Assembly: GCA_020402745.1 (NCBI GenBank)
Contig: JADBYZ010000009.1
Coordinates: forward strand, 58,500 to 122,499
Reading direction: 5' to 3'
Length of the DNA stretch: 64,000 nt
From: Phenylobacterium sp.
Lineage (GTDB): Bacteria > Pseudomonadota > Alphaproteobacteria > Caulobacterales > Caulobacteraceae
This document shows, one piece after another, positions 57,732 through 62,756 of the stretch. The translations under genes were made by a program, and so were the position numbers. Each line of letters opens with the position of its first letter. The stretch's first letter is position 1. Below the pieces are notes generated by a model. That model worked only from the letters and a program-made list of their open reading frames with translations, was not told where the DNA came from and did not search any database.

Positions 57732-58751
57732 ATGCGCGTCTATTACGATCGCGACGCCGACCTCGCCCGCATTCTGGACAAGAAGATCGCGATTGTAGGC
57801 TACGGCTCGCAAGGCCGGGCCCACGCCCTGAACCTGCGCGACTCCGGCGTGAAGAACGTCGCCGTCGCCCTGCGGCCCGACTCCGCCACCGCCCGCAAGG
57901 TCGAGGCCGACGGCCTGAAGGTGATGAACGTGGCCGAGGCCGCCAAGTGGGCCGACGCCCTGATGGTGCTGGCGCCCGACGAACTGCAGCGCGGCATCTA
58001 CAATGCCGAGATCGCCCCCAACCTGCGGGACGGCGCGGCCCTCTTGTTCGCCCACGGCCTGAACATCCACTTCAACCTCATCGAGCCCAAGTCCACGGTG
58101 GACGTGCTGATGGTCGCCCCCAAGGGCCCCGGCCACACCGTGCGCGGCGAGTATGAGAAGGGCGGCGGCGTCCCCTGCCTGATCGCCATCCACCAGAACC
58201 CCACGGGCAACGCCCTCGACTTCGGCCTGGCCTACGCCTCGGCCATCGGCGGCGGCCGCTCGGGCGTGATCGAGACCAGCTTCCGCGAGGAGTGCGAGAC
58301 CGACCTGTTCGGCGAGCAGGCCGTGCTGTGCGGCGGCCTAGTGGAGCTGATCCGCGCCGGCTTCGAGACCCTGGTCGAGGCGGGCTACGCCCCCGAGATG
58401 GCCTATTTCGAGTGCCTGCACGAGGTGAAGCTGATCGTCGACCTCATCTATGAGGGCGGCATCGCCAACATGAACTACTCGATCTCGAACACCGCCGAGT
58501 ACGGCGAGTACGTGACCGGCCCGCGGATCATCACCCCCGACACCAAGGCCGAGATGAAGCGCGTGCTGGAAGACATCCAGTCCGGCCGCTTCGTGCGCGA
58601 CTTCATGCTGGAGAACCAGGCCGGCCAGCCCAGCTTCAAGGCCACCCGCCGCCGCGCCTCCGAGCACGGCATCGAGGAGGTCGGCGCCCGCCTGCGCGCC
58701 ATGATGCCCTGGATCAGCAAGAACAAGCTGGTGGATACTGCGCGGAACTGA
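57732..58751 (+). CDS. ilvC: Ketol-acid reductoisomerase (class I)
   Basis: Converts acetolactate and acetohydroxybutyrate to dihydroxy acids in valine/isoleucine synthesis. 339 residues, the short class I form. Rossmann motif [22 protein letters not shown] near residue 18, PKGPGHTVR, and the Mg-binding [19 protein letters not shown]. Start ATG at 57732, with AAAGGAG upstream; the frame remains open further 5-prime without coding character. Its last 66 codons are repeated almost exactly at 59532-59743 (see the chimeric remnant), so this is the intact copy. Confidence 0.95.
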
Positions 58752-58760
58752 TCCGCGAGG

Positions 58761-58784
58761 CGGCCTCCCGACGCCGGGAGGCCG
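58761..58784 (+). terminator. Terminator-like hairpin after ilvC
   Basis: Perfect 10-bp arms CGGCCTCCCG / CGGGAGGCCG around ACGC. Starts 10 bp after the ilvC stop. The duplicated ilvC tail at 59532-59743 stops matching just before this hairpin, so the copy lacks it. No U-tract is evident. Confidence 0.6.
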
Positions 58785-58809
58785 TCGAACGCCAAGGCGA
58801 GGTCGAGCC

Positions 58810-59436
58810 ATGTTCGCGTCCCTCACCCTCGTGCGCGCCCACCGGATCCTGGCGGCAGGCCTGGCCGTCTTCATCCTCGGGCACCTGGCCACCCACCTCA
58901 CAGCGGTGGCGGGGCCGGAGATGCACAAGCAGGTGCTGGGAGCGACGCAGGGCCTCTACCGCAACCCCTTTGTCGAGCCCGTTCTGATCGTCGCCCTGCT
59001 GACCCAGATTGTCATCGGCGGCCGCCTGCTGGCCCGGCGCTGGGGCGAGGCGGACAAGGGGTTCTGGGGCTGGGCCCAGCTGCTCTCGGGCGGCTATCTC
59101 ATCGCCTTCATTTTGATTCACTCCAGCGCGGCCCTGTCGACGCGGCATGTCTTCGGCATGGATACGGATTTCTACTGGGCCGCCGCCACCGTGAACCTGG
59201 CGCCCTTCAAGTACGGCTTCTTTCCCTATTACGCCCTGGGCGTGATCTCGGTCTTCACCCACCTGGCCGCCGCCGTGCGATTTGGCTGGGGCGAGCGGGC
59301 GGGCTGGGCGCCGCCGGCCCTGATCGCCCTCGGCGTCGTCGTCGCCACCGTGATCCTCGCGAGCCTCGGCGGGGCCCTCTATCCCATCGAGCTGCCGCCG
59401 GCCAACGCGGCCTACTTCGAGAAGTTCGGCTTCTGA
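58810..59436 (+). CDS. Predicted haem-type integral membrane protein (SdhC/FrdC-like)
   Basis: 208 residues with about five hydrophobic helices: near 12-32, 58-76, 88-110, 133-155 and 172-195. Histidines recur at helix-compatible positions: [26 protein letters not shown] and FTHLAAAV, a pattern reminiscent of cytochrome b subunits of succinate dehydrogenase/fumarate reductase, though I cannot prove homology. It occupies the DNA between intact ilvC and the chimeric sbtA/ilvC remnant. Its composition is normal for the genome. No partner flavoprotein gene is near. Confidence 0.6.
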
Positions 59437-60788: not shown

Positions 60789-61230
60789 GCCCCCGCTTGC
60801 AATGAGCCCGGTGAGTGAAAGTTGCGACCGATAGGGCGCTGGCTTTTCCTCGCCTGCGCTTAATCATGAACGCCAAAATCTAAACGCCTATCCATCGGTC
60901 GTTGCAAGAGGCATCCAAACGCCTCTCGAACAAATCAGCCTCCAGGAAAAGAGGGATGGGCGGTACCTCGCCATCTGACCAATCCAATGGGCCTCTCCCG
61001 AAACCTACAGAAAGAAGCCCTTGCACCATGACAAATCCACATTCGGGATCTCCGTTCTTAGCAACAACCCTATCGCAACCCGATGGCTAAAGGAGTCCTT
61101 GGTACCAAACCACTGGCTCAGGTCGCCTTAGGCGACTGGCCGATGAAGATGTAATCGGTGCCCTTGACGGTGCTTGGCTCCGAGGCTTGTCTAAAGCTCT
61201 TTTCGCCACCAGACCTTCGGCGGTGCCCCA
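60789..61230. other. Intergenic stretch within the less GC-rich cargo
   Basis: About 440 bp between the two divergent cargo operons. A TTG-initiated 62-codon frame at 60902-61090 has no ribosome binding site and unremarkable composition; I do not call it a gene. TTGACG at about 61164 with loose -10 options further on might serve the gene at 61231. No RNA gene or repeat was recognised. Confidence 0.5.
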
Positions 61231-61752
61231 TTGAGCGACTCACCGATCATCGTGGCGGCCATCATCGCCGCATTAGCTGGCACATTGGGTCTTGTTATCG
61301 GCAAGGAGCAGAAGACGGCGGAGTTTCGCCAAGCTTGGGTGGACGCCCTAAGGGCGGAATGTGCCGCCCTAGTCGCTCAGGTTCAACTCATGGCCCATGT
61401 CCCACAAGGGGGTTCCAGCGCCGTCGATCGGCGGACTGAGTCCATTGTGGCGTTCCGGATCTCAGAGGCGGCCATCCGCCTTCGGCTTAGCCGTGATTTC
61501 GAAGAGTCCCGGAGCGCGATTGTCTGTCTAGACCAGCTTTCGGAGCGAGTGGCGCGAGGCGACCTAGCCAGCGAGTCCCTGACGCCTATCGCGGAGAGGT
61601 TCATCCAATCAATTCAGAAAATCAGCAGAAAGGAATGGCGGAAGGTCAAGAGCGGGGTGGTGGCCTTCTTTGTCACCTTAATCCTGATCTTGATCTTCTT
61701 AATCGCCTTTGCCTGGTTTCTCATCCAAATGTTCATCAAAATCGCAGGCTAA
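61231..61752 (+). CDS. Two-helix membrane protein in the ilvC-sbtA cargo
   Basis: A 173-residue protein with an N-terminal membrane helix (about 4-22), a cytoplasmic helical domain, and a C-terminal helix (about 142-168). The juxtamembrane FRQAWVDALRAECAAL resembles an RQxWIDxLR element I associate with small membrane proteins of variable and defence-associated loci; that is memory, not a search. TTG start. It sits 17 bp from the sbtA stop in converging orientation. Confidence 0.6.
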   Translation: MSDSPIIVAAIIAALAGTLGLVIGKEQKTAEFRQAWVDALRAECAALVAQVQLMAHVPQGGSSAVDRRTESIVAFRISEAAIRLRLSRDFEESRSAIVCLDQLSERVARGDLASESLTPIAERFIQSIQKISRKEWRKVKSGVVAFFVTLILILIFLIAFAWFLIQMFIKIAG

Positions 61753-61769
61753 TATTACCTCCAGCCCCC

Positions 61770-62756
61770 CTACAGCGCCCCCGCCGCCAGGGCGTAGAGG
61801 GGCAGGCCCAGGATCAGGTTGAAGGGGAAGGCTACGCCCAGGGAGAGGCCGAGATAGATGCCGGGCCGGGCCTCGGGCAGGGCGGTGCGCATGGCGGCGG
61901 GGGCGGCGATGTAGGAGGCCGAGGCGGCCAGCAGGATCAGGAGGGCGCTGTCGCCGGGGGCGAGGCCGGCGAGGCGTGAGGCGAGCCAGCCGGCGCAGGC
62001 GCCCGCCAGGGGCAGGGCGATCCCCAGGGCCAGGACCCGGGCGGGCGGCCTTCCGGCGTCGGTGAGGCTGCGGGCGGCGGCCAGGCCCATGTCCAGCAGG
62101 AAGAGGCAGAGGGCGCCCTGGAAGAGGGGGTTCACGAAGATGTCCAGCCGGGCCATGCCGGCCTCGCCCGTCGTCAGGCCGATCAGGAAGCTGCCCACCA
62201 GCATGAGGGCCGGGCCGCCCAGGAAGACCTCGCGCAGTATGCTTCCCATGCCGTGGCCGGCGCCGGAGCCTTCCGCCGCGCGCCTGGCGATGATGAGGGC
62301 GGTGAGGATGGCTGGGGCCTCCATGATGGCGAGGACCGCCGTCATGTAGCCGCTGAACACCACGCCGTGCGCGGACAGGAAGTCCGCCCCCGCCGCATAG
62401 GTGACCACAGAGACCGAGCCGAAGGCCGCCGCCGTGGCCGCCGCCGAGGCGCGCTCCAGTCCGCCGAGCCGCCTCAGGACCGGATAGGCCACCAGGGGCC
62501 AGGTCAGGGACAGGATGAGGCCGGCGATCCCAGCCCGTACGAAGCCCTCGCTGAGACCGGCGTCGGCGGCCTCGACCCCGCCCTTGAACCCGATGCAGAG
62601 CATCAGGAAGAGGGAGAGGGTGCGGCTGGTGGAGGCGGGCAGGGACAGGTCTGACTTCGCAAAGCCGCCGAACAGGCCGAGGACGAAGAAGAGGATGGCC
62701 GGCGCAAGCAGGTTCTGGGCGCCGAGGGCGGCGGCGGAGGTCAGGGCTTCGGGCAT
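61770..62756 (-). CDS. SbtA-like sodium-dependent bicarbonate transporter
   Basis: A 328-residue inner-membrane protein of the SbtA/DUF897 family: about ten helices in two inverted five-helix halves, with LNLLAPAILFFVLGLFGGF-like opening, FLMLCIGFKGGVEAA (ion-site loop), AAAFGSVSVVTYAAG and, in the second half, ASASYIAAPAAMRTALPEA. SbtA imports bicarbonate with sodium in cyanobacteria; heterotroph homologues supply anaplerotic carboxylases. Here its last 88 bp are also present in the 59.5-kb remnant. A divergent LysR gene and a T-N11-A dyad suggest LysR control. Confidence 0.85.
   Translation of the reverse strand: MPEALTSAAALGAQNLLAPAILFFVLGLFGGFAKSDLSLPASTSRTLSLFLMLCIGFKGGVEAADAGLSEGFVRAGIAGLILSLTWPLVAYPVLRRLGGLERASAAATAAAFGSVSVVTYAAGADFLSAHGVVFSGYMTAVLAIMEAPAILTALIIARRAAEGSGAGHGMGSILREVFLGGPALMLVGSFLIGLTTGEAGMARLDIFVNPLFQGALCLFLLDMGLAAARSLTDAGRPPARVLALGIALPLAGACAGWLASRLAGLAPGDSALLILLAASASYIAAPAAMRTALPEARPGIYLGLSLGVAFPFNLILGLPLYALAAGAL

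Follow-up and report, generated by a model that had tools for sequence, protein, structure and literature searches.

The analyzed window is a 64-kb stretch of Phenylobacterium DNA in which an intact ilvC gene and an intact, convergent sbtA-like gene (hereafter sbtA) flank two different fillings, X1 and X2. Between the fillings lie second copies of the 3' ends of both genes, placed back to back around a short shared word, AGGCCGAGAT. The features are collected in Table 1. Numbers of the form G0xx designate genomes of a 101-genome genus set, with G000 being the window's own genome.

Table 1. Features of the ilvC-sbtA interval, in window coordinates
Feature	Position	Strand	Basis
Intact ilvC (ketol-acid reductoisomerase)	57732..58751	+	Pfam PF07991 (KARI_N) and PF01450 (KARI_C)
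AGGCCGAGAT in ilvC, parental junction word	58546..58555	+	
Hairpin directly after ilvC, probable ilvC terminator	58759..58786	+	Fold of 58741-58805, z -4.14
X1, 208-aa hydrophobic protein	58810..59436	+	ORF; homologs after ilvC in G047, G092, and G046
Stranded sbtA 3' end, 88 bp	59454..59541	-	97% to 61768-61855
Chimeric junction, 10-bp microhomology AGGCCGAGAT	59532..59541	+	
Stranded ilvC 3' end, 212 bp	59532..59743	+	98% to 58546-58757
Hairpin at X2 left end, 11-bp stem	59753..59785	+	Fold of 59725-59800, z -2.77
X2 gene with DUF2335 domain	59876..60484	-	PF10097, E 1.1e-16; in 1 of 101 genus genomes
X2 ORF, 125 aa	60411..60788	-	ORF; no match in Pfam, PADLOC, or NCBIfam
X2 gene, 173 aa, hydrophobic C-terminal segment	61231..61752	+	ORF
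Intact sbtA-like gene	61770..62756	-	PF05982, E 1.7e-100
AGGCCGAGAT in sbtA, parental junction word	61846..61855	+	

The assignment of ilvC in the sequence-only reading agreed with the matches to both KARI domains, and its sbtA-like label was supported by the strong Pfam match, though NCBIfam gave none. Its description of X1 as SdhC-like found no such backing: no succinate dehydrogenase anchor family matched X1 in Pfam, NCBIfam, or PDB sequences, and X1 had no match of any kind in these collections or in PADLOC. X2 was described as lower-GC cargo, and 59744-61767 indeed has 55.7% G+C, compared with 69.0% for the whole window. The hairpin predicted to terminate ilvC is absent after the ilvC fragment, as judged by sequence comparison.

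The ilvC fragment is identical to its parent at 208 positions, with 4 differences, and the sbtA fragment at 85 positions, with 3 differences. These two pairs were the strongest repeats of the window in a self-comparison that listed only repeats of at least 50 bp and more than 80% identity. The two fragments overlap in exactly the 10 bp of AGGCCGAGAT, which also occurs in both parental genes. The copies, the shared word, and a gene order of the kind that a tandem duplication with a microhomology join leaves behind had been noted from the letters alone, and all were confirmed by comparing the sequences. Overlaps of at least 10 bp arose at a frequency of 7e-5 among 300,000 simulated random ilvC/sbtA joins, placing the observed 10 bp above chance. 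An 80-base query over the seam, with up to 9 candidate places scored per genome, had a full-length match in only 1 of the 101 genus genomes, the window's own. The scar itself is clear and unusually legible; the event is ordinary in kind, and the kind is already known.

ilvC was matched in 98 of the 101 genus genomes, some of these matches being partial or weak. sbtA was matched in 29 genus genomes, and in 10 of these the match positions show it linked to ilvC; the cargo content was read for these 10 intervals. Relatives thus do show linkage, and the genus genomes searched contained no separately placed fragments that lacked it. Other genomes also hold X1, or the right part of X2, in the ilvC-sbtA interval: X1 follows ilvC in the three relatives named in Table 1, and G045 has the right part of X2. 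The 173-aa X2 gene is present in 2 of the 101 genomes (G000 and G045) and adjoins sbtA in both. In G045 a 19-bp exact piece of X1 adjoins the X2 gene, which makes it probable that its ancestry included a molecule carrying both X1 and X2. The sister species G047 carries a similar scar with other cargo: X1, a short spacer, and an sbtA tail of ~97 bp are followed by HicA and DUF1902, with 94.3% identity to G092 across a 701-bp stretch that takes in the sbtA start. The DNA alignment of the G047 sbtA tail ends at ~97 bp, and its protein match spans 42 residues. Within Phenylobacterium, the stretch between ilvC and sbtA is a hotspot for cargo. The search of the 101 genus genomes yielded no cargo-free ilvC-X1-sbtA haplotype and no second genome with the left part of X2. 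An apparently split ilvC in G024 was rejected, being a run of N translated as X.

All 7 differences between the stumps and the parent genes (4 in ilvC, at 58571, 58586, 58649, and 58658, and 3 in sbtA, at 61788, 61809, and 61839) are synonymous third-position changes. When the two sbtA tails of G000 are compared with the two of G047, the 6 variable sites also all fall at third codon positions. Under free drift, the probability of 7 synonymous changes of 7 is 8.2e-5, 2.8e-4, or 1.3e-3, depending on the mutation model, and it is 0.001 to 0.02 when only the 4 or 5 changes assigned by eye to the fragment side are considered. Synonymous-only differences are the pattern of genes under selection rather than of stranded fragments, which suggests that each half had a history as a functional gene before the join. 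This whole argument rests on only seven differences. At the site corresponding to 58571 the ilvC fragment has G, as do seven of eight close relatives (G045, G015, G046, G088, G005, G092, and G007), whereas intact ilvC has A, as in G047. Distant relatives are split, with A in G002 and G067 and G in G009 and G038, and the derived base is therefore not certain. At 58617-58618 (CA) and 61833 (T), the fragments agree with the intact G000 genes and differ from G047, which points to close kin as the source of the other haplotype.

We consider that the scar was probably produced by illegitimate fusion of two diverged versions of one locus, haplotype A being ilvC-X1-sbtA and haplotype B ilvC-X2-sbtA. 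DNA of one haplotype would have entered a cell carrying the other. At one end, ordinary homologous recombination would have taken place, either within sbtA or past it, or else within ilvC or ahead of it; at the other, sbtA of haplotype A would have been joined to ilvC of haplotype B at AGGCCGAGAT. The product would keep ilvC and sbtA intact and retain both fillings, with the sbtA and ilvC stumps back to back. Such a fusion would be young. The synonymous-only differences and the pattern at 58571 favor joined DNA from a different molecule, and no donor was found. The flanking ilvC and sbtA genes are intact and seamless, as homologous exchange at the other end would leave them, but no donor tract was visible against G047, and no clear foreign tract was found in either flank. 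A dip in identity to G047 at 62500-63000 (88.8%) was rejected as such a tract and looks like a departure of G047 itself, since G000 is there 97.4% identical to G092 and 95.8% to G015. As for the route of entry and joining, a ComEC family match is present. GTA_TIM was not found in the window's own genome, with a positive Caulobacter control, so there is no indication that such a gene transfer agent served as vehicle. Ku was likewise not found (0 of 1; of 14 controls, B. subtilis alone was positive), and Ku-type end joining is therefore not indicated. We counted against a fusion the missing parent haplotypes, the joint X1 and X2 trace in G045, flanks without a clear donor tract, the uncertain polarity at 58571, the G000-like bases of the stumps, the small number of differences (7), and the failure to find GTA_TIM.

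The sequence-only reading held that one interval had been duplicated and had then diverged or been replaced on one side. Its topology stands, but a single interval copied and then diverged on one side is not supported, given the synonymous-only differences, the pattern at 58571, and the occurrence of X1, and of the right part of X2, in the ilvC-sbtA intervals of other genomes. Replacement on one side survives as a rival, in which a true tandem duplication (ilvC tail to sbtA tail) occurred in one lineage at the 10-bp match and one filling was later exchanged by allelic recombination with a relative. This scenario, which we regard as unlikely, fits the topology and the microhomology exactly, includes the hybrid junction between the two end genes, and agrees with fragments that carry G000 bases absent in G047 at 58617-58618 and 61833. 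It requires a second event, however, and the fragments show no nonsynonymous change at all; moreover, intact ilvC of G000 and of G047 both have A at 58571, and the ilvC fragment does not. A plain tandem duplication would give both units the same content, and self-comparison found no long repeat between X1 and X2. Less likely still is an assembly chimera, in which coexisting X1 and X2 strains were merged during assembly or scaffolding through a 10-bp overlap of contig ends. A merger would account for the adjacent haplotypes, for the synonymous differences, and for the failure to find the full seam in any other of the 101 genus genomes; the window's own genome is in 46 contigs, and three of the relatives are metagenome assemblies. 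When a word-based assembler breaks contigs at strain differences, however, the closest difference should lie one word length from the contig end on either side. Here these distances are unequal, at 16 and 25 bases, and both are short for usual assembler word sizes. The same order of X1, spacer, and sbtA tail also begins the insert in the separate assembly of G047.

Two further readings have very little probability. The ilvC fragment might be an end displaced by an integrase-borne island that used the ilvC 3' end as its attachment site. G038 has two repeats of the ilvC 3' end downstream of the gene, in the vicinity of CBASS genes and of the start of a DUF6538 gene; integration at the ilvC 3' end is likely in that genome, and the site may thus serve islands in the genus. 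A displaced gene end of this kind would begin at the crossover core and run to the stop codon, but the copies in G038 start near the equivalent of 58686, whereas that in the window begins 140 bp upstream of this point (58546), exactly at the microhomology with sbtA. No integrase domain was found in the four X1 and X2 proteins scanned against Pfam, and the sbtA stump would be left unexplained. Slightly more improbable again is retention of the ilvC fragment as a translated 65-aa gene (59540-59737), with later selection limiting it to synonymous changes. An ATG at the junction, purine-rich sequence upstream, and the open frame would suit such a gene, but the fragment encodes only the end of the protein, the opposite-strand sbtA fragment is equally synonymous-only with no start of its own, and no further free-standing ilvC piece was noticed among the genus ilvC matches.

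The arrangement leaves two pairs of direct repeats, the 212-bp pair around X1 (986 bp apart) and the 88-bp pair around X2 (2314 bp apart), and RecA should thus be able to loop out X1 or X2 and restore either parent. If this prediction is true, the locus would be a small natural model of cargo gain and loss between conserved genes. It is conceivable, though improbable, that the convergent ilvC and sbtA tails act as reusable recombination handles at the hotspot, with alternative fillings stacked by fusion of whole locus versions at short tail matches and later looped out; since the repeats allow loss of either filling, the locus would then toggle, within the population, between carrying one filling and carrying two. 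Synonymous-only stumps also offer a simple test at other hotspots, distinguishing fusion of alleles from duplication followed by decay.

No earlier report of this locus was found in the titles or opening lines of abstracts searched, although one may nevertheless have been published. Several known systems share elements of the arrangement. Integrase islands at gene 3' ends also leave a displaced gene end downstream of the cargo, and something similar is seen in G038; the window differs from them in the start of its copy, the undetected integrase, and the sbtA stump. Tandem-duplication merodiploids formed in S. pneumoniae transformation at repeats such as IS861 copies likewise have tandem segment copies around a hybrid junction (PMC3784515), but they span ~100-900 kb, whereas the units here are ~1-2 kb, are joined at 10 bp, and differ in content. 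In the T6SS clusters of Vibrio cholerae, stacked immunity-gene arrays show cargo added successively beside a conserved anchor with older pieces left downstream, and the authors propose a mechanism like homology-facilitated illegitimate recombination (HFIR) (PMC5361080); here the displaced 3' stumps come from two housekeeping-type genes and the cargo does not consist of effector-immunity pairs. HFIR itself, described in Acinetobacter, Streptococcus pneumoniae, and Pseudomonas stutzeri (PMC2884548 and PMC3240628), combines homology at one end with a nonhomologous join at the other, so that DNA is gained at a locus with a flanking anchor, and the short microhomology at AGGCCGAGAT has the character of its nonhomologous end. 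The window differs in that the join lies between two different genes and that the incoming DNA, as the allelic region of close kin, would have had homology at both ends. In the accounts available to us, illegitimate joins adding DNA at a homologous locus have so far come from laboratory selections or been deduced from gene arrays. The scar described here, in contrast to a laboratory recombinant, is a natural one known from its sequence, and it still allows the junction to be read along with the word in each parental gene and the two stumps.

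In the genome that contains the window (G000; 2.87 Mb, 46 contigs), an intact ilvC and an intact sbtA enclose two fillings, X1 and X2, and between the fillings lie the stranded 3' ends of both genes, here called stumps. The stumps overlap in AGGCCGAGAT, which forms the seam, and in a self-comparison they were the strongest repeats within the window. The coordinates that the sequence-only reading had given for the stumps and their junction proved exact. The hairpin directly past the ilvC stump differs from the one that follows intact ilvC.

Features of the ilvC-sbtA locus and repeats in the window
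Feature	Position	Remarks
Intact ilvC	57732-58751	leftmost element, followed by a hairpin
X1	58810-59436	right of the hairpin after ilvC
sbtA stump	59454-59541	88 bp
ilvC stump	59532-59743	212 bp
Hairpin past ilvC stump	59753-59785	11-bp stem
X2	59744-61767	DUF2335 gene, 125-aa ORF, 173-aa gene
Intact sbtA	61770-62756	minus strand
Dispersed repeats	63795-63890, 39775-39916, 50271-50600	partly palindromic

An overlap of at least 10 bases arose in 7e-5 of 300,000 random ilvC/sbtA joins; on this strand, the two genes have identical 10-base words at 10 position pairs, plus one word of 12 bases. An 80-base query spanning the seam, with up to nine candidates scored per genome, matched over its full length in one of 101 genomes sampled from the genus, namely the window's own. 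Some match was obtained in 88 of the 101, either to one of the halves (ilvC or sbtA) or to both separately. The ilvC match reached 11 bases further left in nine genomes (83-93% identity), which we interpret as fortuitous similarity of ilvC to sbtA next to the shared word.

The sequence-only reading had proposed a tandem duplication whose interval was then diverged or replaced on one side. A stranded copy is expected to change at every codon position, but all four ilvC and all three sbtA differences between stump and intact gene are synonymous third-position changes, which does not support divergence of one copy. The chance of seven synonymous changes out of seven was 8.2e-5, 2.8e-4, or 1.3e-3 under three mutation models, and 0.001 to 0.02 when counting just the four or five changes placeable on the fragment side, by eye on the alignment rather than by formal reconstruction. 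At 58571, the ilvC fragment carries G, as do G045, G015, G046, G088, G005, G092, and G007; intact ilvC of G000 and G047 carries A, and more distant relatives have A (G002 and G067) or G (G009 and G038). It is therefore probable that the allele in the fragment diverged from the intact gene earlier than G047 split off, or at about that time, and the change may run in either direction. At 58617-58618 and 61833, the fragments agree with the intact G000 genes against G047, indicating that the other allele came from close kin.

Distribution of the fillings was determined across the same 101 genomes; the closest relatives that carry a name are metagenome assemblies from Phenylobacterium and Caulobacteraceae (JADBZH010000131.1, G047; CANGRP010000263.1, G092; JADCAS010000020.1, G046). 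Matches were found for ilvC in 98 genomes (some partial or weak), sbtA in 29, X1 in six, the 173-aa gene of X2 in two, and the DUF2335 gene in one. X1 is near-complete after ilvC in G000, G047, G092, and G046, follows ilvC but runs off the contig in G088, and is a distant match (42%) in G010. Judged from match positions, 10 of the 29 genomes that have sbtA carry it no more than a few kilobases from ilvC on the same contig; in the other 19, the two genes are mostly on separate contigs of broken assemblies. Contents were read in all 10 linked intervals, with family scans of proteins from G000, G047, G046, and G038. The interval holds X1, HicA, and DUF1902 in G092 (the latter two named by DNA identity to G047), and X1, a SIR2-like gene, and DUF1902 in G046, where the DUF1902 gene adjoins the SIR2-like gene at the place of HicA in G047. 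By eye, G009 and G067 carry a gene resembling the G038 2OG-Fe(II) oxygenase (the family scan being on the G038 protein), and G015 and G007 have palindromic repeats and no clear gene; both intervals hold copies related to the window repeat at 63786-63890, which includes the palindromic CTCCCCCTTGGGGGAG at 63833. A repeated sbtA tail occurs in two of the 10 (G000 and G047), as does a repeated ilvC tail (G000 and G038). The ilvC-sbtA interval is a place of cargo gain and loss.

In G038 (L085, 3350-9530), the interval contains a resolvase and the 2OG-Fe(II) oxygenase, and two further copies of the ilvC 3' end lie downstream: one matches perfectly across at least 101 bp, up to the end of the query, and the other spans about 60 bp at 91%. 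Nearby are a type II restriction enzyme, CBASS genes (SMODS cyclase and SLATT_4 effector), and the first part of a gene with DUF6538, a domain that occurs in tyrosine integrases. The ilvC 3' end in this genome looks like an island attachment site.

G047 has a comparable scar, in the order X1, a similar short spacer, a roughly 97-bp sbtA tail, HicA and DUF1902, and intact sbtA; the HicA gene, toxin-like, adjoins a convergent DUF1902 gene (L036, 2180-2665). This HicA/DUF1902 stretch, start of sbtA included, is 94.3% identical to G092 over 701 bp. Across the tails and the intact sbtA genes of G000 and G047 (two of each), six sites vary, all of them third-position. The scars are consistent with two independent fusions that each joined a different partner to an ilvC-X1-sbtA version, or may descend from one older shared event with later changes.

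On balance, we favor fusion of two haplotypes, ilvC-X1-sbtA and ilvC-X2-sbtA, which would have been joined by ordinary homology at one end and by an illegitimate join at 10 bases at the other. The layout, the junction, the synonymous-only differences, and the presence of the fillings in other genomes are observed; we infer the existence and identity of these haplotypes, as well as the direction, route, and youth of the fusion. The G000 genome has a ComEC family match; the family gave matches in 10 of 14 control genomes as well, and ComEC alone is no proof of competence. Neither Ku nor GTA_TIM was detected in the G000 genome. Several observations count against fusion: no intact parent haplotype was found among the 101 genomes, the supporting stump-parent differences are few (seven), and comparison of G000 and G047 flanks (mostly 97-99% to the left and to the right, but low in the windows at 62500 and 63500) revealed no clear foreign tract. 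Furthermore, the G045 interval contains an exact 19-bp match to X1 (L094, near 16973; window 58972-58990) beside the 173-aa gene, suggesting that X1 and X2 were formerly together in that line. This remnant lies immediately past the ilvC leader, as would result from a deletion of X1 between two GTCGAGCC words. The join could also have been made by the assembler, if the source was a metagenome with two strains; this is made less likely by the similar start of the X1-sbtA-tail arrangement in G047 and by the unequal spacing (16 and 25 bases) between the seam and the first difference on each side.

The closest descriptions of the fusion that we favor are homology-facilitated illegitimate recombination (HFIR; PMC2884548, PMC3240628), transformation-made merodiploids (PMC3784515), and the stacking of immunity genes in Vibrio cholerae, where an HFIR-like mechanism has been proposed (PMC5361080). 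According to PMC3240628, presumed HFIR clones in an E. coli conjugation assay were mostly partial duplications (56 of 60 clones by PCR, 14 sequenced) arising from a single crossover with a shortened circle; since these dominate there, that route is a near neighbor of fusion. The scar is a new natural example of a kind of event already known.
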